Of a stretch of DNA of 64,000 nucleotides, positions 18,983-46,712 are shown one piece after another. The DNA comes from Rhodamnia argentea (taxonomy: Eukaryota; Streptophyta; Magnoliopsida; Myrtales; Myrtaceae). The notes beneath the pieces were generated by a model. It made no database searches. It had not been told where the DNA came from and saw only the letters and a list, made by a program, of their open reading frames with translations. The position numbers and the translations under genes were made by a program. Where the stretch lies: NCBI RefSeq assembly GCF_020921035.1, contig NC_063150.1:27389826-27453825 (forward strand). The letters run 5' to 3'. How positions within the stretch are numbered: position 1 is the first letter of the stretch; every line of letters starts with the position of its first letter.

Positions 18983-19003
18983 AGTCCAAAGTTCAACTCG
19001 TTG

Positions 19004-19014
19004 CCCTTTTTATA
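19004..19014 (-). promoter_or_regulatory. TATA box of the PPR gene
   Basis: On the minus strand TATAAAAAGGG lies about 22 bp before the ATG at 18982. At the usual 30-bp spacing, transcription would start at or just after that ATG, favouring the in-frame Met at 18964. The unit B copy keeps the same box near 36842-36852. Confidence 0.4.
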
Positions 19015-21340: not shown

Positions 21341-21345
21341 GAGAG

Positions 21346-21587
21346 TGTTGGAATATGTAGTGTGTTGGAATGTGTAGAGATAGCTGTCATAGCTATTAAT
21401 TACTGTTAGAGTTAGCTACGGCTATTAATTAGTGATTAATTGTCATCTTGATATAGTCTATCTGTTAGGTGCCAACTACATATTAAATAGGTCTTATCTC
21501 TTATTGGGTTCCTGATGTATATAAATAGAGACTGATTGTAACTTTTGAAAATGAATGAAAAATACGTTTGTTCTTTCTCCTTCAACA
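21346..21587 (+). repeat. Copia-1 5' LTR
   Basis: The LTR starts tgttggaatatgtagtg and then restarts tgttggaatgtgtagag, a 17-bp partial tandem duplication missing from the 3' LTR. TATA-like tatataaatag lies at about 21517-21527. It ends in CA directly before the primer-binding site. Confidence 0.92.
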
Positions 21588-21664
21588 TGGTATCAATTCC
21601 CGAAGGTCCTTTATCTATTTACCTCGGGTGATTTTTGGTCTTTCCCTTTGATCGTTCAATCACC

Positions 21665-24600
21665 ATGTCTGAAGAGTCATCAATCACCCGGTCTAATCAC
21701 TCATCACTTCTCACAAAGTCCACCGAACCTCATGCTATTCGGATCACTTGCATAAAGATGAATGGAGATAACTTTTTTCAGTGGTCTCAATCCGTTCGAA
21801 TGTATATACGAGGCAGAGGAAAGATTGGCTATATGACTGGAGATATTGTAGAACCTACTCCAAATGACCACTCTTGGGCTGTCTGGGATGCGGAGAATTA
21901 GACTATTATAACGTGGTTGACCAACTTCATGGAAGAAGATATTGGTGCGAACTATTTGGGCTATCATACTGCTAATGAACTCTGGAATGCTGTGTGTGAG
22001 ATGTATTCAGATTTGGGTAATCAATCTCAAATCTACGAGTTAACCTTGAAACTAGGAAAGATGCGGCAAGGAGAGGAAACTGTCACAAAATACTTTCACT
22101 CCTTGACACATTTGTGGCAGGAGCTGGATTTATTTAATGACTATGAGTGGAGGTGTGCTGAAGATGGTAATCAATACAGGAAAATTGTAGAAGCTGAACG
22201 TATCTATGCTTTCTTAGCTGGTCTTCGAGATGAGTTTGATGAGGTACGCAGCAGAATACTTGGAAAGCAGCCTCTTCTACCTATTGGAGAGGTCTTTTCG
22301 GAGGTTCGGAGAGAAGAAAGCAGACGAGGAATAATGCTGGGCAAGGCAGCTACCGGCGGAAAGGATGTATCATTGGAAGGTTCAGCCTTGGCTTCCTTTG
22401 AAGACAAGAAGATTCGTGTGCTTGCAACAGTAGTCTCCAAGTCAAATGTAAGCAAAATCCCTGTTAACTTGCGAAGTTCGGATGGGAGACCGCGTATTTG
22501 GTGTGATGTCTACAACAAACCCCATCATACACGGGAGACCTGTTGGAGGATTCATGGCTGACTAGCTTCATTCAGCCGTAATAATAAGCCATCTCATAGT
22601 GTGCCTCCTACAGCTAATGAGGCCACTGCATTTCCTTTCAGCAAAGAGCAACTAGACCATCTTATACAGCTACTTCAAGTGGGTCCGCATTGGGTAATCC
22701 CTCTTGCTTCAATTGCCCACCAAGGTAGAAATCTAAAAGCCCTTTCTTGTTGTTTGCAACCTGTCCCTTGGATCATTGATTCTAGGGCATCTGACCATAT
22801 GACTAATATTCCATATTTATTCACATCCTATGTTCCTTGTCCCGGCAACCAAAAAATTCGAAATGCCGATGGGAGTTTTTCGTCTATTGCAGGCAAAGGA
22901 TTAGTTCCACTTTCCGATTCTATTACGCTTCATAATGTACTGCATGTTCCTAAGTTAGCTAGTAACCTAATGTCCGTTAGTAAACTTTCTAAAGAGTCTA
23001 ACTGTCGTGTTGTCTTTTTTGCTTCCCATTGTGAGTTTTAGGATCAGATCTCGGGAAAGACGATTGACGGTGCTAAGATGAGGGATGGTCTCTACTATTT
23101 TGAAGAGTTTTTCTTTGATAAAAAAGCTCGGGCATATGGAACTTTCTGTTCTTTCTCTGTCCAAGAAAAAATTATGGTTTGGCACCAAAGATTAGGCCAT
23201 CCTAGCTTTGGATACTTGAAACATTTGTTTCCTCATTTGTTCGAATGTGTGGATGTTTCTTCCCTACACTTGTGAAAATTGCCTTTTTCTAAAAGTCATC
23301 GTACTCATTATAGTCCAAAACAGTATCGTGCGTCATCACCATTTTATTTAATCCATAGTGATATTTGGGGTCCTTCACCCGTGCCAACAAAAATCGGGAA
23401 ACGGTGGTTTGTCACCTTTATAGATGATCATACCCGTTTATGTTGGACATACTTGATGAGTGCCAAGTCTAAAGTCGAGTCCCTATTCAAAACTTTTTAT
23501 CAAATGGTTGTGGCCCAATTCTGCACTACTATTAATATCCTTCGTACCGATAATGGTACTGAATATTATAATAAGCATTTGGGGAGTTTTTTGAGAGAAA
23601 AAAGGCATCCTTCACCAGTCAACTTGCCGCATTACACCCCAACAGAATGGATTGCTGAACGCAAAAATCGCCATCTCCTTGAAGTATTCCGTGCCCTCTG
23701 TTTTTCAATGCATGTACCTAAATACTTATGGGGGGAAGCTGTGTTAACATCATCTTATCTAATCAATAGGCTACCTACTCGGGTACTGAACTACACTACT
23801 CCCTTAGATTGTTTCAAACAAGAGTACTCCACGGCTCGTATTTATTCCGATGTTCCTCTAAGGGTGTTTGGTTGCACCGCATTTGCCCACCTTCCAATTC
23901 AGTGCCGATCTAAATTAGATCCTCGGGCTGAAAAATGTGTGTTTATAGGATATGCACCTAACCAAAGAGGTTACAAGTGCTACAATCCACATATTGGCAA
24001 AACTCACATCACTATGGATGTCACCTTCATAGAGTTACAATCGTTCTTTTCCAACAAATCTCTTCAGGGGGAGAATGCTGAAGTTAGTGAAGAGATTTTG
24101 TGGCATTCAAACTCTCCTGTCCTTCCCAATCCTTTGTTTGAGTCTTCGAAAACACCTTTGCCGAATCTTGATTTGTCAAAGACAGGGGGAGAAAAAGTTC
24201 AAGATCACAGTGTGATCAACAAGCCTGATCTTCAGGTTTATACTAGAAGAAAGACTCTTCAAAAGGTTGCAGATAAGAACTTTGTCTTGGAGCCTCACTT
24301 GTTTGCAGCCCCGGGAGATGATTCCTTGCCTTCGTCATCGGGTGATCCTAGTAGTACTCCTTTTTTTTCCCTCCATTCTAGTCTCAAATTCTAATCTTGA
24401 TATGCCTATAGCTCTTAGAAAAGGGGTTAGATCATGTACTCAACATCCTGTGTCAAAACATGTGTCATACCAAAAGTTGTCTCATCATCATAGAGCGTTT
24501 GTGTCAAATCTGTCTCACATAACCATTCCTAGAAATATCCAGGAAGCTTTGAAGGATCCAAAGTGGAAGATGGCCGTTGAGGATGAAATGCAAGCACTTA

Positions 24601-26060
24601 TGAAGAATGACACTTGGGAATTGATCGATGCACTAGAAGGAAAAAAGATTATTGGCTGTAAATGGGTATTTATTGTAAAATGTAAACCCGATGGGAGTGT
24701 TGAGCGATATAAAGCAAGGCTAGTGGCAAAGGGATTCACTCGGACTTACGGAATTGACTATCAAGAGACTTTTGCTCCTGTTGCCAAGATAAATTCTGTT
24801 CGGATTTTGCTATCTTTGGCTGCTATTTTTGATTGGCCCTTATACCAATTAGACGTGAAGAATGCGTTCTTGAATGGTGACTTGGAGGAGGAAGTGTTTA
24901 TGAGCTTGCCACCAGGTTTTGCAGAAAATGAAGGCAAAGTCTGCAGATTGAAAAAGTCGTTGTATGGACTTAAACAATCTCCAAGAGCGTGGTTTGAATG
25001 GTTCGGGAAGGTGGTTAAAAGGTTCGGCTATCAACAAAGTCAAGGGGATCACACTCTATTCTACAAACACTCAAAGGAAGGTAAGCATGCTATTCTAATT
25101 GTCTATGTTGATGATATAATATTGATTGGTGATGACAAAGTTGAGTTGGAAAGCTTGCGAGAGAAGTTGGTTCGGGAGTTTGAGGTTAAGGATTTGGGTG
25201 TCTTGAAATATTTTCTTGGAATAGAATTTGCGAGATCCAAGAAGGGCATATTCATAAACCAACGCAAATATGTTCTTGATCTGCTCAAAGAGACAGGTTT
25301 ATTAGGATGTAAAGCGGCGGAGACACCCGTGGAGCCAAATCTGAAACTTGAACCAACCAAGGCTGAAGAAGTGGTTGACCGAGAAAGGTATCAAAGGCTT
25401 GTCGGTCGACTTATTTATTTATCTCATACTCGACCCGACATAGCATTTCCTGTAAGTATGGTGAGCCAATTCATGCACTCACCAGGGCCAAGGCATTTTG
25501 AAGCTGCATATAGAATTCTACGCTTCCTAAAGGGAAGTCATGGTAAGGGTTTAATGTTTGAGAAACATGGACATTTGGAAATTGAAGTGTTTACCGATGC
25601 AGATTGGGCTAGAAGCGTTATGGATAGGAGATCTACTTCAGGCTATTGCACATTTGTCGGTGGAAATTTAGTTACTTGGAAGAGTAAAAAGCAGAGTGTG
25701 GTGGCAAGAAGCGGTGCCGAAACCGAGTTTCGGTCGGTAGCACATGGTGTCTGCGAAGTTATGTGGATTAAAGATATATTAGATGAACTATGGATCCCGA
25801 GTTCTACACCAATCAAAGTGTATTGTGATAATAAGGCAGCAATCACAATTGCTCATAATCTCGTATTACATGAACGGACAAAGCATGTGGAAGTTGATAA
25901 ACATTTTATCAAAGAAAAACTTAATAGCGGGCTGATTTGTATGCCGTATATTTCAAGTGATGAATAGGCTGCTGATATTCTGACCAAGAGACTGCAAAGA
26001 AGGCAATTTGACCACCTTGTGAGCAAGCTGTCTATGGAAGATATCTTCAAGCTAGCTTGA
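21665..26060 (+). pseudogene. Copia-1 gag-pol, inactivated
   Basis: Gag starts at ATG 21665. In-frame stops occur at about 21898-21900 (TAG), 22559-22561 (TGA), 23039-23041 (TAG), 23273-23275 (TGA, destroying the CxxC of the integrase zinc finger) and 25965-25967 (TAG in the ADILTK region). A frameshift occurs in a T-run near 24360. Protease has DSR (22778-22786) where the catalytic motif is normally DSG. Integrase is recognisable from WHQRLGHPSFGYL through FIDDHTRLCW and RTDNGTEYY to the conserved WGEAV block. RT spans about 24550-25320 with YVDD at 25104-25115. RNase H follows, with TDADWARS and DNKAAI. It cannot encode its own proteins. Confidence 0.93.
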
Positions 26061-26067
26061 GGGGGAG

Positions 26068-26292
26068 TGTTGGAATGTGTAGAGATTGCTGTCATAGCTA
26101 TTAATTACTGTTAGAGTTAGCTACAACTATTAATTAGTGATTAATTGTCATCTTGATATAATCTATCTGTTAGGTGCCAACTACCTATTAAATAGGTCTT
26201 ATCTCTTATTGGGTCCCCGATGTATATAAATAGAGACTGATTGTAACTTTTGAAAATGAATGAAAAATACGTTTGTTCTTTCTCCTTCAACA
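26068..26292 (+). repeat. Copia-1 3' LTR
   Basis: This 225-bp LTR begins tgttggaatgtgtagag and ends ccttcaaca. It follows the polypurine tract and is followed by the TSD gagag. Confidence 0.93.
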
Positions 26293-26297
26293 GAGAG

Positions 26298-27070
26298 TAA
26301 TATCATGATGTGGGAAAGGAACAGATAGTTGCAAGCTGCAAGACTTGGATTATGAGTCATTTCTGCCGAAAGCTACTCTTTGCCTTTGCATAATTCCAAA
26401 ACCATCAAGCAGTTTTCGTAGTCGTCTGAGTTGGGAAGAACCTGTCCTATGGCGAGACCGATTACTTCTGCAGCATTTATGCCTCTTAGGCCTAATCTAA
26501 GTTTCAAACATGATGTTTGTGCCAAATGGCGGGTAACCGAAGCGAACATCTATGATGGTATTGGAAGTTAGACAAGGTGGCAAAATCTCCTACTATGTAA
26601 AACATTAGGTTTCTTTAGTTATGCCGGTGGCTGCGGTGGCTGCAGTCGCGGTCTTGTGGTATAGTCAAGGGTCGGGGCAGTGAACCCGGCGGAGTTGGAG
26701 CAGTGCCACGAAGACGAACCTCGGTCGGTCACCATTCATAGTAGTTAAAGAGAATCTTGCCTACATCTTTTTTGGTTGATCCCGCAATCCTAGTGGAATT
26801 ATGCCTGCTTAGTTCCGTGGTTCGAGGACAACCAAGCATTATGACTGACATCATAGCAAAGCTATGTAACATACTTGACTGGACTATTCTAAAGTCTATC
26901 AAATTGGTCCCACACACCATGAATGAACAAAGCCCATACAGTGCGAACATGTTTCATTTCTCTCCATCTATAAATTCAGACCCTTCGTGGCTTAGACCTT
27001 CGTACCCAGAGCTTCAAAAAAAAAAAAAAACTAGTTGAACAAAACTCATTGCCATCTCTATAACCGTTCG
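26298..27070 (+). promoter_or_regulatory. Upstream region of the unit A dioxygenase, with TATA box
   Basis: CTATAAATTC at 26969-26978 lies about 100 bp before the ATG at 27071, with an A-tract near 27017-27030 in the leader. The sequence matches 39311-40088 of unit B. Copia-1 now sits about 0.8 kb upstream of this ATG, separating the gene from its former distal upstream DNA. Confidence 0.5.
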
Positions 27071-28407
27071 ATGTCTCTGGTACCCATTACTCCGATCAAG
27101 GTCGGTCACATAGACGATGTTCAAGAACTCAGAAGGTCCAAGCCTATGAAAATCCCCACGAGATTCGTTCGGGATATGGACGAGAGGCCGACTCTAGAGA
27201 CTGTCGCTCTGCCTTCGCCTTGTGAAGTTCCGGTCATTGATTTGTCTAAAGCTCATGCGTGGAACAAAAGATGTTAGCAACGCTGAAATATCACAGCTCG
27301 CAGCTGCCTGCCAGGAGTGGGGATTCTTTCAGGTACAGATGGAAATAATTTTTTTTCTCTTCTTTAGCACTTGAAAGATAGTTCATACATAGTCTCAGCA
27401 TTTTTGTTGTTCTGCTAGGTGGTGAATCACAGTATTGATTTGGGTTTGCTCGAGAGGATAGAGGAGGCGGCGAAGGATTTCTTCATGCTGCCTCTGGAGG
27501 AAAAGCAGAAATACCCAATGGCTCCAGGAACTGTTCAGGGGTATGGTCAGGCCTTCGTGTTCTCCGAAGACCAGAAGCTCGATTGGTGCAACATGTTTTC
27601 TCTCAGCATCGAACCCAAGTTCAATCGGGATCCAAAGTTATGGCCTAAGAATCCACCTGAATTTAGGTAATGATGTGTTAGTCAGTCCAAACTTCCATGC
27701 TTGCGAGTATATTGATGGTCGAAGCTTATTTTCCAGCGAAATTGTGGAGGCTTACTCTAAGGAAGTAAGGAAGCTGTGCCAGAGTCTGCTGAAATACATA
27801 GCCGCGAGCCTCGGGTTGAGAGGTAACGTGTTTGAAGAGATGTTCCGGGTAGCCGTGCAAGTCATCGGGATGAATTACTACCCTCCCTGTTCGAGGCCTG
27901 ATCTTGTTCTCGGTTTGAGTCCCCATTCGGATGGAAGTGCTCTGACCGTGCTGCAGCAAGGAAAGGGTAGCTCGGTAGGACTACAAATACTCAAGGACAA
28001 TAAATGGGTGCCGGTCCATCCTATTCCGAATGCTTTTGTGATCAACATCGGCGACACAATTGAAGTACGAAACTCGGTCCTCATTTTTCGTAGTAATCCT
28101 GATCTAGGCATCCGGATAGTCTTTCTCACCGAGATCATATATGCAGGTCCTAACGAATGGGAAGTACAAGAGTGTGGAACATAGAGCTGTGACTCATAGG
28201 GAAAAGGACCGCCTATCGATCGTCACGTTCTACGGCCCTAGCTATGATGTAGAGCTCGGACCGATGGCGGAATTCGTGGACAGGAGCAACCCATGCAAGT
28301 ATAGGAGATACAATCATGGTGAGTACAGCAAGCACTACGTGACCAACAAGCTGCAAGGGAAAAAGACCCTCGAGTTCGCTAAGGTTCAAACCGAGAACTC
28401 GAGTTGA
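27071..28407 (+). pseudogene. 2OG-Fe(II) dioxygenase (SRG1-like), unit A, frameshifted
   Basis: Four exons match the intact unit B gene: 27071-27332, 27419-27666, 27737-28064 and 28147-28407. Exon 1 has one extra A in a run near 27248 (ctaaagctc against ctaagctc in B). This shifts IDLSKLMRGTK to IDLSKAHAWNK and stops at 27275-27277, about 70 residues in. Everything catalytic lies downstream: the HxD motif in LSPHSDGSAL, the distal His in VEHRAV and the DRLSIVTF arginine. Those exons remain open and all splice sites are intact, which suggests recent inactivation. Start and family assignment follow copy B. Confidence 0.85.
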
Positions 28408-29566
28408 AAGCAGTCCCATCTTAGTCCGCCACCTCACGGTTTCCAATAATTGGAGGAGGCATAAAACTAGTACCTTGTAAATTACCATGTGTCTGTATTG
28501 CTTCAGGTTAGTCACTGTATTTGACATAGGCAACAGCTCTAGTTGGACGGTGTTTTGTAGCGGAAGAAAGAGATGTGATCATTTGTGGACAGTATCGTTA
28601 GTGGGAGTTATTGCCGGTTCGTAAAGTGACTATCATTAATGCCGAAACTAAGTGGGGTCTTATGATAAACAACTTTTGCCTTTGAGATTGTCCATATTCA
28701 TGAGTCCCTGAGGTTTGATCCACTTGCAGCATTGAGGGAGAAACACAATTTAGAACACGAAATGCCACTGTTGCTTTTTGGCCTACCAGATTGCCAATAT
28801 GGAAAACAGCATCAAACGATGACGATACCACAGACATCGAAACAAAACATTATTGTCAATGGTAATCACATTATGAACCATGGTCTGAAGGAAAACTGAG
28901 CTGCACGAGTACTCGTCTAGTTTACAGCAAAACTCATACAGAGGCTGCAATAATGAGAACCCACCTAAGCATAAGAGTTAAGCTGACCAGAAACAGAAGC
29001 AAACTGACACAAGCCAACTACAGTTAACCATAGAGATCTTTCATTAGAATATGCCCAAGTTGGAGATTCTGCATAGATTCTTATGAAGTTATGATAGACC
29101 TCGAGAAAGTTGACGGGGGGAATACTGTTATACACTTCGTGATCGAAGAATGATCGTGTGGAGCTAATGTCGATTCTCCGGTCAAAAAGATTGACATCAT
29201 TAACCCAGAAGAAGTGCCTCTATTTGCTGTCGAATTTGCAATCTTACACCAAGTGAAGACTCTTTCTGTCAGCATCCAATTAGCATAGTTCAAGTTCAAG
29301 TCGAAATTTCTCTTTGTTCAGCCAGATTTTAGCATCAAAAGTTCAGGGATGATGAAAAAATTGACTGCAACTGACCCTAACATGATTACGGCAGCAACTA
29401 CTCGTTATATTCATTAGTAACTCAGGACTCAAATACTAGGGGGTCATTAGCTAAAAAACAAGTGATTGATGCATAAAAGTATAAATCAAGAATATATCGG
29501 ATACAATCATTGACTAATTTAGAATTGCCGGATTCAACTAAGTAAAGACGCGAACTTTAATGGAAC
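28408..29566. other. 3' flank of the unit A dioxygenase
   Basis: It is collinear with 41425-42591 of unit B. Short minus-strand ORFs at 28598-28837 and 29081-29299 recur in B, but at 29081-29299 the reading frame differs between copies, which argues against coding function. Copia-2 is inserted at the right edge. Confidence 0.5.
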
Positions 29567-29571
29567 AATGT

Positions 29572-29681
29572 TGTTGAAAGGGTAGTTTAGTCTTTTCTAT
29601 AATTAGTGAGCCCTAATGTTCACTATATATATAGATGATGTAATCTGATAATGAAGTGAATGACAATTATGTTTTTCAACA
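29572..29681 (+). repeat. Copia-2 5' LTR
   Basis: This is a 110-bp LTR beginning tgttgaaagg and ending tttttcaaca, with an internal tatatatatag box. It is identical to the 3' copy. Confidence 0.95.
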
Positions 29682-29693
29682 TGGTATCAGAGC

Positions 29694-30619
29694 CTATGGT
29701 CACCAAAACCCTTCTCCGCTTTCAGTAAAAAAAAAAAAAAAAAAAAAAGAGGATCCAGAGCGGTCGGCGTTGCCCGACGCCACCCGGCGTTGCTCGACAC
29801 CGCCCAACCCTAGATCCATAGCAACCGGCGTTGCCTAACGTCACCCGACGTTACCCGACGCAGCCCAAATCCAGCGTCACTCGACGCTTGGCGCCGTCGT
29901 CTGACTCCACCAGGCGAGCCCTTGGCCGTCTCTCCGTCTCCATGTTGGATCGATGAATTCCTTCGTCGAATTATAAATTGGCGACGTGAATCCACAGCTG
30001 CAGCCACTGTTACCGTTATTGGATCGATGAATTCCTTCGTCGAATGATTGCAACAACAAGGAGAATCACGTGTTCATGTCCACCACCAGCTTGGAATGGT
30101 GCGAGATCACGAACTGATGCTTTAATTTTGGTTTTCTATTCATTTATGGTGTTCGGTTGCTTGGTTGCCAGAAAGTTCTTTTTTTTGGTAGTGCTTCATT
30201 CTGTGTTGCAACAGAAATTGCGGTGAAGATTAGTTTAGGAGGCTCATCATCAGTTTCAGCATTGAAATTTGAATCTCTCTTAGTTTATAATAAGAGGGAG
30301 AGGCAGTGACGGAGGGCTTGTTCCTGCATGCCTCTTGGTTTGCTTTGCGTTTATCTCAGGTTGTTGGAGTCCAGTACCTTTGAAGGTCTCTTTTGTCGTG
30401 GCATTTGATCTGTTGGAACCTTATTGTATTGGCTTGAGACTTCAGTTGATGTTCCGCCTTCCCTTGGCCAAAAGACAGTGTTGATTTGTTAATGCCCTCT
30501 ATTGATTCGTGTTTATGTTCTGATGAGTTATTTCCATTGGTGGTAATTGGTGGTAATTATTACCTTTAGTGCACAAGGTGCCAATTTTCGTAAGTTCACT
30601 TTTATATTATTATTGAACT
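29694..30619 (+). other. Copia-2 untranslated leader with internal repeats
   Basis: It contains an A20 tract near 29729-29748 and a low-complexity run of cgacgc/ggcgttgcc-type phrases (about 29765-29890). A perfect 27-bp direct repeat starts ttggatcgatgaattcc at 29945-29971 and again at 30019-30045. No ORF precedes gag at 30620. Confidence 0.7.
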
Positions 30620-33600
30620 ATGGCTAGTAATTCTGGAAACACGGATACTAGTCTCACAAATCTGAAGCTGACCTCCGTTAAGCTCGATGGGACCAATTAC
30701 CCTTCTTGGTCTATGGCAGTCGAAACATATCTTTTGGCCACAAAACAACCGAGTTATTTGACTTCATCTCCACCTATGGATAAAACAAAGGAGGATGATT
30801 GGCGTTCTGGCGATGCTGCTATTAGGACATTGTTGTGGAATACCATGGATTCCAAGATTAGTCCTCAGTTTATGCGTTGTACCTCAGCCAAAGCTATTTG
30901 GGACAAATGTGCTCTCATGTTTTCGGGTCGTGATAATATGACCCGTGTTTGTGATGTGTGGGAGGAACTATTTGACCTTCGTATTGGAGACATGTCTGCA
31001 TCTGATTATTATTCTAAGTTCACTACACTTTGTGAGAAACTGGATACTTATTTGCCCGCCACCGATGACATTAGAGAGCCGGCTAAGCGCCAACAGGATA
31101 TGAGAGTTGTGTTATTTCTTCGGGGGCTTGGTCCTACTCATTCTTCTCTTCGACAGCAGATTATCTCTCAGGGTACTCTTCCATCAGTAGATGAGGTTTT
31201 TTCTCGAGTACTTCGATGCGTGCTCGACTCATCATCATCAGCACCTGTAGCAAGTGCCATGATTTCTCGGTCTGGCGGCGGTCGTGGAGGCCGGGGGCGT
31301 GGTCCTCGAGGTCGTGGTAGGTCTCTCTTTTTACCAGGTCGTGGCCGAGATAGTGGTAAGGGTGCTGGAAGTTCTCGTTATTGCAATCATTGTCGCCGAG
31401 CTGGTCATACCGAGCCTTATTGTTATATCCTACATCCCGAGCTTCGCCCACGGGCTGCTTATGCTGAAGCAGTAGAATCTCCAAGTCTGAAGGTTGCTGA
31501 TCGGTCACAAGAGTTGCCTAGTACCATTATGCTGACTCGCGGTGAGTACGAATCCTTAGTGCGTCCCAACCAGGTGGTGGATTCCTCTGCTCCTATTGCT
31601 ACTTTGGTACAGACTTCTTCGGGTAGTCCAACTTGTTTACTCTCTTCTGCGCCCACAACTTGGGTCATAGACTCTGGCGCCACAAATCATATGATTGGTA
31701 ATTCTAAGTTGTTGTCTGGTATTACTTCTATATCACCTAGTTCCGTTACACTCGCCGATGGTTCACAATCCCATATCACCGGTCAAGGGAATGCAACATT
31801 GGGTCCCTCTCTTACTCTTTCATCTGTTTACCATTTGCCAGCTTTCCCATATAACTTGCTCTCTGTTAGTTCTCTTACTAGAGATTTGAACTGTTCCGTA
31901 ACGTTTACTTCCACTCATTGTGTCTTTCGGGATCCGAGGACCGGACGGATGATTGGTGGCGGACATGAGTCCAATGGGCTTTACTACCTGAACAAAGACC
32001 TTATTGCTGCAGCTGCTCAAAAGAAAACTGCTTCCGACTTATTCCGGATGCATTGTCGTATGGGTCATCCACCAACCGATATTCTTCGTCATTTTTCACC
32101 TATTTCGGAATCTATGAGTCATATTCGGTGTGATGCTTGCCAATTTGGCAAACACCATCGGTTATCATTTCCTTCTCGTGTCCAGCGTCGTGTGTCAAGT
32201 CCTTTTGAGTTGGTCCATTCTGATGTTTGGGGACCATGTCGTGTCGGTGACATATCTGGTTATAAATATTTTGTTACATTCGTGGATGATTATTCCCGAA
32301 TGACGTGGTTATATTTAATAAAAGATCGAACTGAAGTTTTTTCTTGTTTCCGTATGTTCTACTTTGAAATTCTCAATCAATATCATGTTTCTATTAAATG
32401 TTTGCGTTCTGATAATGCAAAAGAATATATGGCTATTTCTTCCGGTTTTCAATCATTTCTTATATCTCATGGGATTTTGCATCGGACTTCTTGTCCCTAT
32501 ACCCCCCAACAGAATGGGGTAGCCGAACGAAAAAATCGCCATCTTCTAGATGTGGCCCGTTGCCTCCTTTTTCATATGAACCTCCCCAAAATATACTCGG
32601 GGCATGCTATTCTTACAGCATGCTATCTCATAAATCGCCTTCCATCCTCGGTGCTTCGTGGGGGCATACCTTTCTCCACTATCCATCCTACAAGTTCACT
32701 TTTTACTTTACCACTTCGTGTGTTTGGATGTGTCTGTTTTGTGCATCGTCTTGCTCCTGGTCATGATAAGCTCGATCCACGGGCTGATAAGTGTGTATTT
32801 CTTGGGTATTCTCGAACTCGGAAAGGGTATAAGTGTTATAGTCCGGTCGGTCGGCGATTATATGTCTCTCGCAGATGTAACCTTTTTCGAGGATCGGTCA
32901 TATTACTCCTCTACAGTAGTTCCTTCGGAAGATGTTACGTCTTCGACTATGGCTCCACTGCCGCCTATTCCATTAGCAAGTGTGCTCGAGCCATCAACAT
33001 CGTCATCTACTTTTCGGTTCGCCGATAAGACCTATCAACGACGCCGGTCTGTTCAACGTGAGGTAGTACGGTCGCCGCCTACTTTGGATATTCATGTTTC
33101 TCCACCCGTCGATGTCCCGTCTTCTGATCCTCCGATCGCCGCCGAGCCCGATTCTACTATTGACATTCCCATTGCATTGCGCAAAGGTACACGTTCTTGT
33201 GTTGGTCAACCTAATCCTCGATTTACTCCTTATAGTGGATTATCTTGTCATACACATACTCGGTACCCTCTTTCTCAATTTTTATCCTATGATTGTCTTT
33301 CTCCTACATATTCCTCGTTTGTTGCTTCTTTATCTACTGTATCTGTGCCAAGTACCGTTGTAGAGGCTCTTGCTCATCCAGGTTGGCGACAGGCTATGGA
33401 GGATGAAATGCGGGCGCTACGGGATAATGGGACATGGCAACTTACATCGTTTACTCTGGGGAAACAGTCGTGGGGTGCCGTTGGATTTTCACACTAAAGT
33501 TTCAACCAGATGGCACCGTTGAGCGTCTCAAGGCACGTTTGGTAGCCAAAGGCTACACCCAAACATATGGAGTTGATTATGATGATACATTCTCTCCCGT

Positions 33601-34882
33601 AGCAAAGATACCTTCCGTTCGTGTTTTCATCTCTCTTGCCGTCCATTATGGTTGGATTCTTCACCAACTTGATGTCAAGAATGCTTTTCTTCATGGGGAC
33701 TTGGCGTAAGAGGTATATATGGAGCAACCCCCGGGATTTGTTGCTCAGGGGGAGTCTGCCAGTGTTTGTCGCCTGCGCAAGGCATTATATGGGTTGAAAC
33801 AATCTCCTCGTGCCTGGTTTGGTCGTTTCGGTGATGCGGTTATTCGGTTTGGTTTGCGACGTTGTACTGTAGATCATTCTGTTTTTAGCTCTACTTCCCC
33901 TGCTGGGTGTGTTCTGCTAGTTGTGTATGTGGATGATATTATCATTACTGGTAGTGATTACGTGGGCATAAAAAAATTGAAACAGTTTCTACGGACAGAA
34001 TTTAGCACAAAAGATATGGGCTATTTGCGATATTTCTTAGGCATTGAGGTGGCTTACTCACGTGATGGTATCTCATTATCACAGCGAAAATATGTATTGG
34101 ATATTCTTAGTGAGGTTGGCTTTCTTGGAGCGAAACCTGTTAATACTCCGATGGATCCTAATGTGAAGCTTGATGCAGAACATGGCGAATTACTTCATAA
34201 TCCAAGTAAGTATCGGAGGCTGGTGGGTAAGCTCAATTATTTAACTGTTACCCGACCGGATATATCTTTCTTTGTTAGTGTTGTTAGTCAATTTATGAGT
34301 ACTCCTCGTACTACACATTGGGAGGCAGTACTACGTATAGTTAAATACTTGAAGGGAGCACCGGGCAAAGGGATATTGTTCAAGAATAATGGACATCTTG
34401 ATGTTATTGGCTACTCTGATGCTGATTGGGCTGGTTGTCCTTTTGATAGGCGATCAACTTCTGGTTACCGCGTATTTTTGGGAGGCAATCTTGTGAGTTG
34501 GAAAAGTAAGAAACAACAGGTGGTGTCTCGATCAAGTGCCGAGGCGGAATATCGCGCCATGGCTCATGTGACTAGTGAGTTGATTTGGTTGAGGATGTTA
34601 TTATCCGAACTCAGAATATCATCGTCAAGTCCCTCAATCCTATGTTGTGATAACCGATCTGCTATGCATATCGCTTCAAATCCAGTTTTTCATGAGCGCA
34701 CGAAGCATATTGAAGTAGATTGTCATTTTGTGCGAGAAAAAATTCAAAACAAGAGCATAACACTTCAATACACAAGGACTGAAGATCAACTTGCTGATCT
34801 TTTCACTAAGTCATTACAGGGAAGTAGAGTAATTGCTTTGTGTAACAAGTTGGGACTCTTTGATGTTTATGCCCCAACTTGA
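30620..34882 (+). pseudogene. Copia-2 gag-pol, nearly intact
   Basis: A single frame runs from ATG 30620 through gag, a CCHC zinc knuckle (CNHCRRAGHTEPYC, 31383-31424), an intact protease DSG (31670-31678) and integrase (HHCC finger, FVDDYSRMTW, RSDNAKEY). Near 32872 a 1-bp change shifts the frame. A second shift near 33455 and a TAA at 33707-33709 (where GAA would be expected in the LAEEVYM context) interrupt RT. The rest is open to 34882, with YVDD at 33926-33937 and RNase H SDADWAGC, AEAEYRAMA and DNRSAMHIA. With only three lesions but identical LTRs, it may have been copied in trans by an active relative. Confidence 0.92.
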
Positions 34883-34889
34883 GGGGGAG

Positions 34890-34999
34890 TGTTGAAAGGG
34901 TAGTTTAGTCTTTTCTATAATTAGTGAGCCCTAATGTTCACTATATATATAGATGATGTAATCTGATAATGAAGTGAATGACAATTATGTTTTTCAACA
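34890..34999 (+). repeat. Copia-2 3' LTR
   Basis: This 110-bp LTR is identical to 29572-29681, preceded by the polypurine tract and followed by TSD aatgt. Confidence 0.95.
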
Positions 35000-35004
35000 A
35001 ATGT

Positions 35005-35470
35005 GATTAAAGATATATGGGATTAGAGGAAGCAAAAGGAATCCGATGCACCGTTCAAGTTGTGTTTAACACCCTATAGTGCGCGTGTGCAGAATTTGAA
35101 TTGCTTTCTACAGTTAAACCAACTGATCTGATATCACATAGGAGCTGTAACAAAACTGAATAGAGATCAGCTGCCTCGATTGTGTTTCATCGTATCTTCT
35201 TCACAGCATCGTGTATTTCTCGTCTTTTCTCAGTTTGCTGTTGTCATCGCCTCCTTGCGTTTCCAATCACTTCATCCATTCCATCAATTTGGTTTTTTTG
35301 TTTGCCCCTTTTCCACCCAGATGGCTCAACCAGTTGGGAGGAGCAGCTTTTCCTCAGTGGAATGAAGAAAAGGTTGAGGCCACAATTATATGTTGTATCT
35401 TTACTTGTTCATATTATTGGTGCTCAGGGAAGCACTAACCAGGCAACTTTAGCGCGGGCTTCGCCGATTC
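35005..35470. other. Terminal block of unit A
   Basis: It matches 42596-43060. The short plus ORFs at 35180-35625 are not supported by the paralogous block, whose frames differ. There is no recognised gene. Confidence 0.45.
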
Positions 35471-35496
35471 TTAAGCTGAAAATTCGGCGAAGCCCG
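35455..35496. repeat. Inverted repeat and templated filler at the A/B junction
   Basis: CGGGCTTCGCCGA (35455-35467) and its exact reverse complement TCGGCGAAGCCCG (35484-35496) flank a 16-nt loop. In unit B's right end only the first arm exists (43041-43053), so the second arm is new at the junction. The 14 nt at 35482-35495 belong to neither parental sequence. Confidence 0.9.
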
Positions 35497-36820
35497 ATAG
35501 TTGTTGATTCGACTTTATTAACCAGTTGCTTGCTTCTGTGGCAATCTCAACCTGTCCGTGAAGCCTACTTGCTGATAGAAGAGTTCCCCACAAGAGCGCT
35601 CCCTCTTCAGGCCTCACCTGGATAGATTTCGCCAACTCATAAGCCTTGTCAAGTCGGCCTATTCGGCCAAGCATATCAACTACACATGTATAATGCCTTG
35701 CGTCTGGGATTATTCCGTATTTTTTATCCATGGACTCCAAGATGGCAAGGTCATCATCAACAAGTCCCGAGTGGCTACATGCATGCGGTATCCCGAGAAA
35801 GGTGACGTCATTGGGTTTAACACCTCTATCAATCATCTCTTCCAACAGTTCTAAGGACAACATCCCGAGTCCATACTTTGCAGCACCCACAATCATGGAG
35901 GTGTAGGGAACAACAGATGGATTTTCTATCCTCCTGAAAACTTTCTCACAGTAATTGAAATACCCGCACTTGGCATACATATCCATCAATGCACTCGCAA
36001 TTACATCATTAGTATCGTAGCCATAGCGAATCACTGCTCCATGAGCGATCCTTCCCGAGACTAGAGAGCCTGAGCTTGAACAAGCATTCACAACACTAGC
36101 CAGCATGAAATGATTTGGAAAACCAAATCTGGAATAATCGAACTCCCAAAACAGATGAAGCGCCTCTTTCCCTTTTCCGCTCTGTGCATATGCCGTGATC
36201 ATCGATGTCCAAGAGACAATATTCTTATTGGACATCGAGTCAAAAACCCGTCTAGCTTCATCAACTTCATTGCACTTCCCGTACATGTCCACCAGTGAAG
36301 AACACACCACAACATTACCACGTAGACCAAACACCTCGACATGGGCATGAATTCCTCTCCCCACTCTAAGGTCGGCAAGAACCGAGCAAGCATTGGCCAC
36401 AGTTGTAAGAGCAAACTCATTAGGCAACACTGCACTTCTCCTCATCCTCCCATATAACCAAAGAGCCACCTCGGGTCGGCCCACGCCGATATACCCGGCC
36501 ATGAGCGAAGTCCACGACACGACATTCGGCTCGGGCAATTCGTCGAACAACCGGCGGGCGTGTTCGATTTCCTGCAGTTTCGCGTAGCGGTTGATGAGGT
36601 GATTCGTGGCGGTGGTGTGGGTCAGGAGGCTGGACTTGAGAAGGCGAGTGTGTATCGAGAACGCAGAGTAAAAATCGTTGCTTTCTGGGGGTTTCCCAGC
36701 GTGGAGGGTTTTGCTGTGGAACTTTGTCAGTTGATTTTGGCGCCAACGTCGCGCGTTCTTCAGGGCAGAGAGGAGGTTCCCCATGAACGACGTCGTCTTC
36801 ATATGCGAAGACGCCTCCAA
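35471..36820 (-). pseudogene. PPR gene copy truncated by the duplication (unit B)
   Basis: The 449-codon ORF is collinear with the complete gene at 17144-18982 up to ...SNQQLSG. It then runs into the junction filler, which encodes FAEFSA and a TAA at 35471-35473. All PPR repeats up to the start of the E region remain, but the E+ and DYW deaminase domains are lost. About a dozen substitutions separate the copies (e.g. KKTSFTGNLLF against KTTSFMGNLLS). The promoter region and TATA box are duplicated too, so it could be transcribed. Without DYW it could only bind RNA or act with a partner deaminase in trans; a decaying copy is more likely. Confidence 0.88.
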
Positions 36821-36929
36821 AGTACAAAGGTCAACTCGTTGCCCTTTTTATAACGTCGTTACGGCAAAAATGTCGTTTCTTGACTCATACGACGCCGTTA
36901 AATGTTCAATACGATTCGCCGACTTTACT

Positions 36930-36931
<2 letters not shown>

Positions 36932-36983
<52 letters not shown>
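36932..36983. repeat. Compound (CT)n(TA)n microsatellite, unit B only
   Basis: About fifteen CT repeats run directly into about ten TA repeats. They sit in the roughly 140-bp block (36899-37047) that unit A lacks, upstream of the truncated PPR copy. Confidence 0.85.
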
Positions 36984-37047
36984 TGTAATTAATCAAATAA
37001 ATTCACATCAATAACACTTATCATTATTATTTTTTTTATCTTTTCAG

Positions 37048-39980
37048 GAAAACACTTTGATGAACGCCTTTGAAAAATTCCCACCGCAAATACAAAAAGT
37101 TAATAATATTATCTTATTAACAGAATTACCCGTTACCTATTCAATTTCATCGACTATACTTCACTCGTGATTTGGATCGCATAAAGGAATTCATGGAACT
37201 CTATCCATTCTACAGGTCATGTTGTTGTCTTATTTTCTCAAATTGCGAGATCACAACTTAAAAGCAGGAAGGGAAAAGAAAAAGGATCATTGACCTTCTT
37301 TTATCGAATCAAATAAGCTCTTTATCTATTCAAAAGTAATTTTTGGACAAGATGATCGGTCGAATCATTAAAGCTACAAAGAGGCAAAAAGATGGAGGAC
37401 CACAAAGTTAGGTCACAATTAGGACCTATAAACTTAGGTTAATCATACAAAAGCCCATTAGCCTCCAAAGTTCATCATCATCCACCACACACAAAAAAAA
37501 AAAAGGAGGGTAGGGGTGTTCCATCCCCAAGAATCCAAAAGAGGCCAATGAAAATGATCAGATTAAGGGTGTTCAAAGTGCTAAAAATTTGTTTGAAAAA
37601 TGCAACCAAGTCCTAAAACTTTTAAAAAGAACAATAAATGGAAGGCCCTGATTTCACCAATTTGACAAGACACGTTCTTGAAAGTTTCAGGACTTGATTG
37701 CAATTTTTATGATTAGTTTTAGGACTTGTTTGTACTTTCGAAAGTTTTATGATTCAATTGCACTTTCGGAATAAGTTTTTAGAACTTTGGGTGTGTTGCA
37801 CCCAAACCCATCTTCAGAGATCATATAGCTATAACTGGTGCGTGTGAGACAGAGACACAAAGAGTCATTTAGCTGGGATGCTGTAAATTTTTCTCTTCAC
37901 TTCTGAATCCTGATTGCCCAGCAAATGTTCTGAAAATTGCTGTGCACCCCATTCAAATTGGGTCACAGCAGACATGGATTCCGCCCTTTAGCTAGAGGAG
38001 GAAGAAGACAAGATGAAGGTGGGGGAAAGACAAAAGGAAAAGGATAGAAAAGACAGAGTGAGGCCCATTGGTGCAGCAGGGTCCAATTATACATGACTTC
38101 ACTACAAGACAACCTCTTTTGTTCCTCTGTACTGGTCTGAAAAAGGAGCCAGAAGCATTTTCCATGGTTTCTTGACTGCTAAGAATTTCACTGATGTCAC
38201 TTATAGTCTTTACCCCTGAAAATTTCTTCGCCTGCCCACTGCATTTTAAATAATCTACCACCATCATGCATACAGGAAAACTTTTTGCATTCCATAATCA
38301 TTGTGTTTTCAACATGTCTTCTTTATGCTATACATTTAATGGAAAGAGTAGCAAGTGTGTGTACTCGTCGTCCTAGCTCAAGGTCCAAGTTCGTACCGCT
38401 GCACTTACGCATCCTCTAGGGACGCTGGCTCGTGGGGAACACGGACTTGTGTGCTCCTGCAAATTGTCCGATTCACGTCAGATGATGAGATAGCCACATC
38501 GAGCGAGAGATTAGTCGGTTGCCAACTAGTATCGGAAACCTCTTATGACGACATGAAAACAACGCAAAATTTCTCGAGGCAAAAGCATCTGTGCTGAATT
38601 TCCGTTTGCTCGGTCTTACCCGCCCATTGGAATTATGATAGTGACACTAGGTTTGGTCTTACAGAGATGGAGATACCTGCTAATAACTCAAGAAGGGCCC
38701 TTCCTTCTATCACACCGCTCATAAGAGGACAAGGTAAAGTCTTGTCACAAGAGACAAGGGAAAGCCAGCCACTCACTCAGTTGTACCGATAGATTCCGTT
38801 TTCAAGAGGGCGTGGACTCTCTCAATTCTTGATCCTGTGTTCATTTAACACGTTGGGAAAGATTAAAACAAGAAGACAGAGACGAGACAAATGAAGCCAG
38901 AATGTTGCAAGTTGGCACATATGAGGACTTACCAAGAATGATTGATGATGCTGTGGCTATTATCTCACACATGGTGTTAGTCTTGTCATAATGAACCGGA
39001 CCTGCATTAGAACAGCTCCTTGTTGGTTGATGAGCAGGTTTCTCCCTAGCCTGAGGATAGAAAAGTTCTAATGTCCCACATGATTTTACACATGGAGAGC
39101 AACAAATAAGGGGAAGAAACGATTGATTCGGGAACGCATGAGATCAGCAGTGTCCAAGCAGCTGAGCGAGCTGAGGTCGAGCATACTGAATCAGTCTCTT
39201 TTGCCCGATGTTTTCGCATTGGCCAAAACCAAAACAAATTGGTGGTGTCGCTTTTTCTCCGCTCTCTAACAATTGATTGGTCATAAGAAAGGATCAAAGG
39301 TGGAGGAGAGTAATATCATGATGTGGGAAAGGAACAGATAGTTGCAAGCTGCAAGACTTGGATTATGAGTCATTTCTGGCGAAAGCTACTCTTTGCCTTT
39401 GCATAATTCCAAAACCATCAAGCAGTTATCGTACTCGTCTGAGTTGGGAAGAACCTGTCCTATGGCGAGACCGATTACTTCTGCAGCATTTATGCCTCTT
39501 AGGCCTAATCAAAGTTTCAAACATGATGTTTGTGCCAAATGGCAGGTAACCGAAGCGAACATCTATAATGGTATTGGAAGTTAGACAAGGTGACGAAATC
39601 TCCTCCTATGTAAAACATCAGGTTTCTTTAGTTATGCTGGGGGCTGTGGTGGCTGCGGTCACGGTCTTGTGGTATAGTCGAGGGTCGGGGCAGTGAACCT
39701 GGCGGAGTTGGAGCAGTGCCACGAAGACGAACCTCGGTCGGTCACCATTCATAGTAGTTAAAGAGAATCTTGCCTACATCTTTTTTGGTTGATCTTGCAA
39801 TCCTAGTGGAATTATGCCTGCTTAGTTCCGTGGTTCGAGGACAACCAAGCATTATGACTGACATCATAGCAAAGCTATGTAACATACTTGACTGGACTAT
39901 TCTAAAGTCTATCAAATTGGTCCCCCACACCATGAATGAACAAAGCCCATACAGTGCGAACATGTTTCATTTCTCTCCAT
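37048..39980. other. Spacer of unit B
   Basis: It corresponds to 19060-21345 joined to 26298-26968 of unit A without the Copia insertion; the join at about 39305-39315 shows the empty target. The dispersed repeat of 19580-19810 recurs at 37565-37805. No gene is recognised. Confidence 0.55.
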
Positions 39981-39990
39981 CTATAAATTC
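39981..39990 (+). promoter_or_regulatory. TATA box of the unit B dioxygenase
   Basis: CTATAAATTC lies about 100 bp before the ATG at 40089. An A17 tract at about 40030-40046 would fall in the 5' UTR. Confidence 0.5.
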
Positions 39991-40088
39991 AGACCCTTCG
40001 TGGTTTAGACCTTCATACCCAGAGCTTCCAAAAAAAAAAAAAAAAAACCAAGTTGAACAAAACTCATTGCCATCTCTATAACCGTTCG

Positions 40089-41424
40089 ATGTCTCCGGTA
40101 CCCATTACTCCGATCAAGGTCGGTCACATAGACGATGTTCAAGAACTCAGAAGGTCCAAGCCTATGAAAATCCCCACGAGATTCGTCCGGGATATGGACG
40201 AGAGGCCGACTCTAGAGACTGCCGCTCTGCCTCTGCCTTGTGAAGTTCCGGTCATTGATTTGTCTAAGCTCATGCGTGGAACAAAAGATGTTAACAACGC
40301 TGAAATATCACAGCTCGCAGCTGCCTGCCAGGAGTGGGGATTCTTTCAGGTACAGATGGAAATAATTTTTTTTCTCTTCTTTAGCACTTGAAAGATAGTT
40401 CATACATAGTCTCAGCATTTTTGTTGTTCTGCTAGGTGGTGAATCACAGTATTGATTTGGGTTTGCTCGAGAGGATGGAGGAGGCGGCGAACGGTTTCTT
40501 CATGCTGCCTCTGGAGGAAAAGCAGAAATACCCAATGGCTCCAGGAACTGTTCAGGGGTATGGTCAGGCCTTCGTGTTCTCCGACGACCAGAAGCTCGAT
40601 TGGTGCAACATGTTTGCTCTCGGCATCGAACCGAAGTTCATTCGGGATCCAAAGTTATGGCCTAAGAATCCACCTGAATTTAGGTAATGATGTGTTAGTC
40701 AGTCCAAACTTCCATGCTTGCGAGTATATTGACGGTCGAAGCTTATTTTCCAGCGAAATTGTGGAGGCTTACTCTAAGGAAGTAAGGAAGCTGTGCCAGA
40801 GTCTGCTGAAATACATAGCCGCGAGCCTCGGGTTGAGAGGTAACGTGTTCGAAGAGATGTTCCGGGCAGCCGTGCAAGCCATCAGGATGAATTACTACCC
40901 TCCCTGTTCGAGGCCTGATCTTGTTCTCGGTTTGAGTCCCCATTCGGATGGAAGTGCTCTGACCGTGCTGCAGCAAGGAAAGGGTAGCTCGGTAGGACTA
41001 CAAATACTCAAGGACAATAAATGGGTGCCGGTCCATCCTATTCCGAATGCTTTTGTGATCAACATCGGCGACACGATTGAAGTACGAAACTCGGTCCTCA
41101 TTTTCCATATTAAGCCTGATCTAGGCATTCGGATAGTCTTTCTCACCGAGATCATATATGCAGGTCCTAACGAACGGGAAGTACAAGAGTGTGGAACATA
41201 GAGCTGTGACTCATAGGGAAAAGGACCGCCTATCGATTGTCACGTTCTACGCCCCTAGCTATGACGTAGAGCTCGGACCGATGGAGGAATTCGTGGACAG
41301 GAGCAACCCATGCAAGTATAGGAGATACAATCATGGTGAGTACAGCAAGCACTACGTGACCAACAAGCTGCAAGGGAAAAAGACCCTCGAGTTCGCTAAG
41401 GTTCAAACCGAGAACTCAAGTTGA
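40089..41424 (+). CDS. 2-oxoglutarate/Fe(II)-dependent dioxygenase, SRG1-like (intact copy)
   Basis: Four exons (40089-40349, 40436-40683, 40754-41081, 41164-41424) total 1098 nt, encoding 365 residues, normal for the family; all introns are GT-AG and 70-86 nt. The N-terminal DIOX_N-type domain includes VPVIDLSKLM and CQEWGFFQ. The catalytic jelly roll has MNYYPPCSRPDL, the iron ligands His and Asp in LSPHSDGSAL, the third His in VEHRAV and the 2OG-binding Arg in DRLSIVTF. Intron positions (after FFQ, after PEF, after GDTIE) match SRG1-type genes as I know them. Such soluble enzymes oxidise specialised metabolites or hormones; the substrate cannot be told. The unit A paralogue is frameshifted, so this is the functional copy. 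ATG 40089 is the first after the TATA box. Confidence 0.9.
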
Positions 41425-43067
41425 AAGCAGTCCCATCTTAGTCCGCCACCTTACGGTTTCCAATAATTGGAGGAGGCATAAAACTAGTACCTTGTAAATT
41501 ACCATGTGTCTGTATTGCTTCGGGTTAGTCACTGTATATGACATAGGCAACAGCTCTAGTTGGACGGTGTTTTGTAGCGGAAGAAAAGAGATGTAATCAT
41601 TTGTGGACAATATCGTTAGTGGGAGTTATTGCCGGTTCGTAAAGTGATTATCATTAATACCGAAACTAAGTGGGGTCTTATGATAAACAACTTTTGCCTT
41701 TGAGATTCTCCATATTCATGAGTCCCTGAGGTTTGATCCACTTGCAGCATTGAGGAAGAAACACAATTTAGAGCACGAAATGCCGCTGTTGCTTTTTGGC
41801 CTACCAGATTGCCAATATGGAAAACAGCATCAAATGATGACGGTGCCACAGACATCGAAACAAAACATTATTGTCAATGGTAATCACATTATGAACCATG
41901 GTCTGAAGGAAAACTGAGCTGCATGAGTACTCGTCTAGTTTACAGCAAAAATCATACAGGGGCTGCAATAATGAGAACCCATCTGAGCATAAGAGTTAAG
42001 CTGACCAGAAACAGAAGCAAACTGACACAAGCCAACTACAGTTAATCATAGAGATCTTTCATTAGAATATGCCCAAGTTGGAGATTCTGCATAGATTCTT
42101 ATGAAGTTATGATAGACCTCGAGAAAGTTGACGGGAGGGAATACTGATAAACACTTCGTGATCGAAGAATGATCGTGCGAAGCTAGTGTCGATTCTCCGG
42201 TCAAAAAGATTGACATCATTAACCCAGAAGAAGTGCCTCTATTTGCTGTCGAATTTGCAATCTTACACCAAGTGAAGACTCTTTCTGTCAGCATCCAATT
42301 AGCATAGTTCAAGTTCAAGTCGAAATTTCTCTTTGTTCAGCCGGATTTTAGCATCAAAAGTTCAGGGATGATGAAAAAATTGACTGCAACTGACCCTAAC
42401 ATGATTACGGCAGCAACTACTCGTTATATTCATTAGTAACTCAGGACTCAAATACTAGGGGGTCATTAGCTAAAAAACAAGTGATTGATGCATAAAAGTA
42501 TAAATCAAGAATATATCGGATACAATCATTGACTAATTTAGAATTGCCGGATTCAACTAAGTAAAGACGAGAACTTTAATGGAACAATGTGAAGAAAGAT
42601 ATATGGGTTTAGAGGAAGCAAAAGGAATCCGATGCACCGTTCAAGTTGTGTTTAACTTGCTATAGTGCGCGCGTGCAGAATTTGAATTGCTTTCTACAAT
42701 TAAACCAACTGATCTGATATCACATAGGAGCTGTAATAAAACTGAATAGAGATCAGCTGCCTCGATTGTGTTTCATCGGATCTTCCTCACAGCATCGTGT
42801 ATTACTCGTCTTTTCTCGGTTTGCTGTCGTCGTCGCCTCCTTGCGTTTCCAATCACTTCATTCATTCCATCAATTTGATTGTTTTGTTTGCCCCTTTTCC
42901 ACCCAGATGGCTCTACCAGTTGGGAGGAGCAGCTTTTCCTCAGTGGAATGAAAAAAAGGGAGAGGTCACAATTATATGTTGTATCTTTACTTGTTCATAT
43001 TATTGGTGCTCAGGGAAGCACTAACCGAGCAACTTTAGCGCGGGCTTCGCCGATTCTTAGGCTGAAA
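41425..43067. other. 3' flank and terminal block of unit B
   Basis: It matches 28408-29571 joined to 35000-35481. It shows the Copia-2 empty site at about 42587-42592 (acaatgtgaag). ORFs such as 42046-42318 (-) are not frame-conserved with unit A. No gene is recognised. Confidence 0.5.
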
Positions 43068-43355
43068 TGACGCTAGTGTCGAAGCATATTGAGCATAAAA
43101 CGAATGCCAGAGAAGCATCTGACGTTGAGATTGTTCACAAAAAGAATTTATTTAACAAAAGCAAGCTACTATACTCTCAGTGGCAATGCCCCACCTCAGA
43201 GCTCAGCTCACACCAAGTACTATAAAATATGCCACACATAGATGAATTCAGGGAGACATAATAAGCAAATTAAATGATGATGCAATCAGCAAAGTGAGCA
43301 GGAATGTAAAAAAAAAACCAGTGCACTTGAGGAAGAAAGGGGATGATGATGCAAC

Positions 43356-45907: not shown

Positions 45908-46680
45908 TCTAGAAATCTTAAAACTTGTCAATAAAGTGTAGTTGAGTCATAAAACTTACAAAAAGTGCAATCGAGTCCTAAAATTTATCAAATTGATGCA
46001 ATCGAATTCTTCCGTTAACTCATCCAATTTGACTAACGGAAAATGCTGATGTGACTTTTTAAATATTTTTTCTCTCTTATGTAGCGACGACATGGCTATA
46101 ACGACGCCATTTTGGTCCAAATTTATTTTTTTAATATAATTTTAATTTATATTAATTTTTTAAATATGCTAAAATTAGAAAGAAACAAAAGAGAATGCAA
46201 AAGCAAAACTAGGTGGTGAGGGTGCCACCGCCCCACCACCATCGAAAAGGGTCGTCGATGTTAGGGAAGTGGATGTCGAGCCTCGACCGGGGGCCAGCTG
46301 GCCCTTGCCGGCCCCCGGTCGATGCCCGGCGACCTTGGGCGGTTTTTTTTGGGCGGTGGTGGCGACAAGCAGAAGCCCTCGTCCCGGGTTCTGCTTACGC
46401 ATTTTTAATTTTATTATTTTAGCTTATTTTTAAAACCAATTTAAATAAAAATTATATTAGAAATTAGATTTGGACTAAAACGACGCCGTTTTAGTCACAT
46501 AGGATAGGGACAATATTAAAAAAATTCACGTCATTATTTTTCGTTCGCCAAATTGGATGGAGTTAATAGAAGAACTCGATTGCATTTTTTACAAGTTTTA
46601 GAACTTAATTACATTTTTTGCAAGTTTTAGGACTCAATTGTACTTTCGTGATAAGTTTTAGGACTTATAATAAACATATC
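45908..46680. repeat. Long fold-back element with GC-rich centre
   Basis: The left arm (cttaaaacttgtcaataaa ... aacgacgccattttggtcc, up to about 46180) is complementary to the right arm (about 46430-46680: ttggactaaaacgacgccg ... ttttaggacttataataaa). The centre at 46205-46395 is GC-rich (gaccgggggccagctggcc and similar), unlike the AT-rich arms, and holds only short ORFs in both strands. A captured sequence inside a MULE-like or fold-back transposon is my reading. Confidence 0.6.
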
Positions 46681-46712
46681 CCTAACCACAATAAAATCAA
46701 CGAACAAGGGGG

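Follow-up and report, generated by a model that had tools for sequence, protein, structure and literature searches.

A templated inverted filler at the seam of a tandem duplication in Rhodamnia argentea, probably left by theta-type snap-back end joining

Within the 64,000-nucleotide stretch of Rhodamnia argentea DNA analysed here (the window), a segment of ~7.5 kb is present twice, head to tail, as a direct tandem duplication (unit A, then unit B), and between the two units lie 14 bases that belong to neither parental border; most of them repeat, in inverted orientation, the nearby end of unit A. This seam is probably the scar of one end-joining event of the Pol theta type, in which snap-back synthesis on a broken end would have produced the filler and the joint itself would have produced the duplication.

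Structure of the duplication and its seam

When the window was compared with itself by BLAST, units A and B aligned as four collinear blocks (coordinates of all features are collected in Table 1), with the start of B matching A from 17658 (17655-19060 against 35493-36899, 98.1% over 1,407 bp) and the end of A (to 35481) matching the end of B (to 43067) at 94.4% over 486 bp. Once the two copia insertions and one target duplication for each are subtracted, unit A measures 7,439 bp; of the resulting 133-bp gap in length between B and the element-free A, a net 126 bp sit in the block 19061-21346 / 36900-39311 and could reflect either an insertion in B or a deletion in A. Within this block, net 126 bp longer in B than in A, B has a CT/TA-rich stretch (36900-37060). 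The units have diverged by 2.8% (210 of 7,431 aligned bases differ), and substitutions are about twice as dense in the last 485 bp (42583-43067 against 34996-35481; 26/485) as elsewhere (184/6,946), a post hoc contrast (Fisher p 0.0015) in which ~14 block-end positions are counted twice; no such rise is seen over the initial, coding 250 bp of B (2/250). Given these 210 differences and the insertions confined to A, the units are not one locus read twice, and such duplicate reading is ruled out for them. An assembly artefact in general is weakened by the same differences and by the clean empty sites in B for both A-only insertions, the 14-bp filler itself being assembly sequence alone. A 2OG-Fe(II) oxygenase ORF was duplicated along with the units (27543-28184 in A, 213 aa; 40452-41201 in B, 249 aa).

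Table 1. Features of the duplication, its seam and the later insertions (positions in the window)
Feature	Position	Strand	Description
Unit A	17658..35481	+	17,824 bp
Unit B	35496..43067	+	7,572 bp, without both copia insertions
Filler	35482..35495	+	14 nt, from neither parent; 12 nt (35484-35495) are an inverted copy
Template arm	35455..35467	+	CGGGCTTCGCCGA; right end of unit A
Loop	35468..35483	+	TTCTTAAGCTGAAA (35468-35481) plus untemplated AT (35482-35483)
Second arm	35484..35496	+	TCGGCGAAGCCCG; reverse-complements 35455-35467 exactly
Right end of unit B	43041..43067	+	one arm only, then GCTGAAA and the right flank
DYW-type PPR ORF, unit A	17144..18982	-	crosses breakpoint 17658 into the left flank
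Truncated PPR ORF, unit B	35471..36820	-	end cut off at the seam
Ty1/copia-type LTR element 1	21346..26292	+	confined to A (B has the empty site); GAGAG target duplication
Ty1/copia-type LTR element 2	29572..34999	+	confined to A (B has the empty site); AATGT target duplication

At the seam and at the two parental borders, the sequence was inspected directly and aligned. Unit A terminates in ...CTTAAGCTGAAA (35481), the filler ATTCGGCGAAGCCC follows, and unit B opens with GATAGTTGTTG... at 35496, the position equivalent to 17658. The reading and alignment confirm the claim of the earlier note that these fourteen bases belong to neither side; its further claim, that all fourteen form an inverted copy, holds for twelve of them (35484-35495, or thirteen with G35496) and fails for the first two, AT, to which no template is assigned. 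G35496 is common to the second arm and to the start of B, and may be counted as the last templated base or as the first base of B. An inverted-repeat scan returned the same coordinates as had been given in that note, namely 13-bp arms in a perfect inverted repeat around a loop of 16 nt, with the templated part of the filler copied from 15-26 nt away. The note was also correct that the right end of B has a single arm: it is the first arm, at 43041-43053, and the exact complementary arm has no second site in the 64-kb window besides the seam. When up to 2 mismatches in 13 were allowed on both strands, further arm matches in the window were limited to 29764 and 31438. The loop part 35468-35481 is the same as the end of B except for one base, and its TTC (35468-35470) can pair with GAA (35478-35480); in the predicted DNA hairpin of 35440-35510 (-20 kcal/mol, z -5.28; none of 200 shuffles did as well), this GAA/TTC pairing is present and AAT (35481-35483) is bulged.

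Chance, border homology and polarity

A chance origin of the match between filler and flank is unlikely. Against the 60-nt flanks in both orientations, the longest match of the filler was 12, in reverse complement to the left flank, and a match of at least 12 to the flanks was reached by 4 of 100,000 random 14-mers of window composition and by 0 of 100,000 shuffles of the filler. Among real 14-mers of the window (zones 35300-35600 and 42900-43200 excluded), 42 of the 59,445 drawn matched the flanks over at least 12, and a check of all positions under the same exclusion found 14-mers reaching 12 clustered around 17658-17701 only, where the paralogue of the right flank lies. Perfect inverted repeats with arms of at least 11 bp and loops of 3-30 nt occupy nine rows for the 64-kb window, two of which overlap in one A-rich stretch; arms of 13 bp occur in two of the nine, at the seam and at 46283-46322, and eight Markov sequences of the same length yielded two repeats in total with arms of at least 11, none of 13. 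A chance palindrome at the seam is rejected on these counts together with the filler randomisations and the hairpin shuffles. The repeat at 46283-46322 falls within a region (45919-47140) crowded with tandem units of 29-60 bp and with inverted repeats (including 46713-46856 / 46995-47140 at 94.5%), which is perhaps MITE-like, although this is a guess.

The 201 bp around 17658 and the 201 bp around 43067 show no significant homology: the best local scores were 17 in direct and 22 in inverted orientation, the latter reached by 64 of 1,000 shuffles and made up of 14 matching bases in 16 (17693-17708 against 43102-43117), a match that is treated as chance. A simple join of 43067 to 17658 offers 1 nt of microhomology, and in the alignments the seam has filler and no hybrid repeat. 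Unequal crossing-over (NAHR) is rejected as the origin for want of significant border homology and of a hybrid repeat at the seam. The earlier note had seen no homologous repeat at both breakpoints and had preferred fold-back template switching to unequal crossing-over, without choosing between MMBIR/fork stalling and theta-mediated joining; the scores uphold the observation, and the preference stands on the lack of border homology, the 1-nt microhomology and the templated inverted filler. From the first two of these it follows that the filler was made by copying.

A transposon-driven duplication, as judged by target duplications at the borders and by Helitron end marks, is not supported. Helitrons end in TC at the 5' side and CTRR at the 3' side, and unit B has no 5' TC or 3' CTRR on either strand. 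Maize reversed-ends Ac/Ds events resemble the seam in being direct tandem duplications in a plant, whereas their joints are described, in the part of the source drawn on here, as carrying 8-bp target duplications (PMC3744419); such duplications are absent here, where the 15 nt outside the left border and the 15 nt outside the right border have no k-mer of 4 to 8 in common, not even a 4-mer, and on that comparison alternative transposition of the Ac/Ds type is not supported. As expected for plant DNA, the right border gave 0 matches as an exact 22-nt pattern in viral_contigs, a scan that may omit records of the window's own genome.

The left border can be polarised by the PPR reading frame of unit A, in which PPR repeats are accompanied by an E motif at residues 421-483 and a DYW deaminase domain at 527-612 (residue numbers start at the TTG opening the ORF). 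Because this PPR-DYW frame is intact across 17658, the left side of A would be the original neighbouring sequence, the start of B being the new joint, and the left flank of A is taken as ancestral on this evidence from the sequence. A limited search nearby found nothing comparable spanning 43067, and for that border we infer the ancestral state.

Candidate mechanisms and their precedents

In the reading that we favour, resection at the right border would have left a 3' end (top strand, ...CTTAAGCTGAAA-3') that folded back on itself, its terminal bases pairing with TTC 35468-35470 over 3 bp (GAA/TTC) provided that the last A had frayed or been trimmed, and otherwise over 2 bp. A polymerase of the Pol theta type would then have slipped or put on two untemplated bases, extended the end by copying 12-13 nt of that same strand (from 35467 back to 35455), and released; a joint with 0-1 nt of microhomology would have linked the new 3' end (...GCCCG) to G17658, the left border of the sister copy. 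Because an end from the right border would thereby be joined to an end from the left border, the product would be a head-to-tail duplication with an inverted filler at its seam. A break, a sister chromatid as partner and a theta-type enzyme are presumed in this scheme, as is the origin of filler and duplication in one event.

The letters of the seam agree with the scheme in several respects. The top-strand sequence TCGGCGAAGCCCG needs the top-strand sequence CGGGCTTCGCCGA as its template, on the same strand and set back by 14 nt from the ancestral 3' end (35481); the template would thus lie on the strand of the presumed 3' overhang, so that an intramolecular snap-back would need no strand invasion. 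Beside the template, priming pairs of 3 bp (end 35480, GAA/TTC) or 2 bp (end 35481, AA/TT) are available and are followed by 2-3 untemplated bases, although pairing this short could readily arise by chance. The letters do not all fit one clean primer register, because AT is untemplated and the 3-bp pairing needs the last ancestral A unpaired. The filler is one templated stretch with no patchwork, and its shortness and singleness, the 2-3-bp priming, the two untemplated bases and the template strand favour theta-mediated joining without amounting to proof; the enzyme cannot be read from one junction.

Published repair behaviour, here drawn from parts of the cited sources, offers precedents for most of these steps. 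Human Pol theta is reported to start stem-loop synthesis from two terminal base pairs and to slip when nucleotides are restricted, and the authors model repair products with an inverted repeat (PMC11292364); the enzyme is also reported to mix untemplated, cis (snap-back) and trans additions (PMC4912351). Break repair in Arabidopsis leaves templated inserts, some of them reverse-complementary and many matching within 100 bp (PMC5217109), and such inserts are assigned to a TEBICHI-dependent path by a source that also cautions that flank-matching inserts need not derive from juxtaposed ends (PMC10923293). The products of theta snap-back joining are like the seam in their short inverted copy near the break, 2-3 bp of priming, few untemplated bases, 0-1 nt of microhomology at the second joint and borders without homology; the cases described in these sources come from in vitro reactions, nuclease breaks and T-DNA junctions, whereas the seam belongs to a natural ~7.5-kb tandem duplication. 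Counting against the likeness, plant TMEJ outcomes are mostly templated inserts that are very frequently patchworks, as far as the part of the source used here goes (PMC8654963), in contrast to the single stretch at the seam. Tandem duplications in worms have been tied to Pol theta (PMC7368036), and the Pol-theta-dependent duplications of C. elegans brc-1/brd-1 and helq-1 are, like this one, kilobase-sized, head to tail and formed by end joining, sometimes with inserts (PMC7368036, PMC8654963); they are described from repair-defective animals, whereas the present case comes from a genome assembly. The seam combines these two known outcomes, templated inverted inserts and Pol-theta tandem duplications, and is a clear natural example of an already known repair route.

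The same end product could come from replication (MMBIR/FoSTeS), if, at the right border, a collapsed fork or a BIR strand made a brief switch to an inverted template, moved on to the left border and kept copying the unit. Replication template switching is reported to make reverse-complement copies (PMC8794818) and MMBIR to make templated insertions (PMC8421209), at least in the parts of these sources drawn on here, and the denser substitutions near the right border are a hint, noticed post hoc, of mutagenic replication. No rise in substitutions is seen in the first 250 bp of B, and a single short insert, templated at most 27 nt from the end on the presumed 3' overhang strand and with no further patches, suits end joining equally or better; template switches are present with 0-3 nt of microhomology, as would be expected equally under either route. 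We regard MMBIR/FoSTeS as unlikely, if deserving of some weight. Less probable again is a fold-back copied by Pol delta with its second end caught by classical NHEJ, as in budding yeast. To our knowledge yeast has no Pol theta, so it cannot show which enzyme a plant would use. Its local fold-back insertions (Pol delta plus NHEJ) place, as at the seam, an inverted insert of similar size beside the break, and on the published figures (inserts mostly ~5-34 bp; second-joint microhomology of 0-5 bp, median 2) the 12-13 nt and the 0-1 nt found here both fit; the yeast events, however, were primed by a longer, imperfect microhomology of 10 bp, against the 2-3 bp available here, with a 41-nt loop, and they are described as repair at one cut site rather than duplication of a segment (PMC11724301). 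A two-bp start is, moreover, reported to be rare among human polymerases, with Pol delta degrading the single strand and giving no extension (PMC11292364).

Two further histories would place the origin of the filler outside the duplication event. Had a plain join come first, a short template-switch mutation might have added the inverted copy afterwards, and single-event hairpin-making mutations are described in the part of the literature drawn on here (PMC8794818); such a mutation would nevertheless have to strike the exact seam, one position in ~7,572 of unit B, and two events would be needed instead of one, which makes this order scarcely credible. Equally hard to credit is a right border that once had both arms, with the filler ancestral and the second arm lost by deletion from the right end of B: the right border, for which the ancestral state is inferred, leaves room for such a history, but an unrelated deletion that ended exactly at the unit border (43067) would be needed. 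Theta-type snap-back joining, by comparison, would account for filler and duplication in one event.

Consequences for the PPR gene and later insertions

The seam illustrates how a repair joint makes a truncated PPR ORF. The copy in unit B continues to residue 443 and then reads FAEFSA before its stop (tail GFAEFSA-stop): codons 443-446 are entirely filler, 442 and 447 are partly filler, and 448-450 (S, A, stop) fall in the end of unit A, while Ser442 and Gly443 coincide with the residues of A. No E-motif or DYW match was found in the unit B ORF at E 0.001. Its reading frame is still open across the part common to A, and between residues 7 and 441 the two copies have a dN/dS of 0.53 (13.5 non-synonymous and 7.5 synonymous changes), indistinguishable from neutrality (Fisher p 0.11 on rounded counts).

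At 2.8% divergence the filler is still preserved together with its template and probable priming site, which allows a repair mechanism described at experimental breaks to be proposed for a natural gene duplication. Whether the case generalises is doubtful, taking three propositions jointly: that snap-back joining of the theta type regularly makes multi-kilobase gene duplications in natural plant genomes, that such duplications leave hairpin seams still readable once the copies have diverged by a few per cent, and that they at once create altered genes, as would be exemplified here by a PPR ORF without DYW whose tail comes from filler and border. The seam opens no new principle, and no claim of a first report is made for fold-back seams at natural duplications in plants.

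Both Ty1/copia-type elements were inserted into A after the duplication, given their target duplications and the uninterrupted empty sites in B, and this one locus shows the order of events: the duplication, then two retrotransposon insertions into A. The LTRs of element 1 differ at 7 of 226 compared bases and the 110-bp LTRs of element 2 are identical (0/110 differences); by this small sample, element 1 would be of roughly the same age as the duplication, and element 2 a young insertion. RVT_2 is found in both elements, and gag and integrase also in element 2, where the gag/integrase matches and the RT match lie on two separate ORFs. The start of the 5' LTR of element 1 has a 17-bp tandem duplication (21345-21377) that is absent at the start of its 3' LTR (26068). 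Elsewhere in the window, a tandem array at 57888-58370 has a 121-bp unit in ~3.9 copies with 95% matches.
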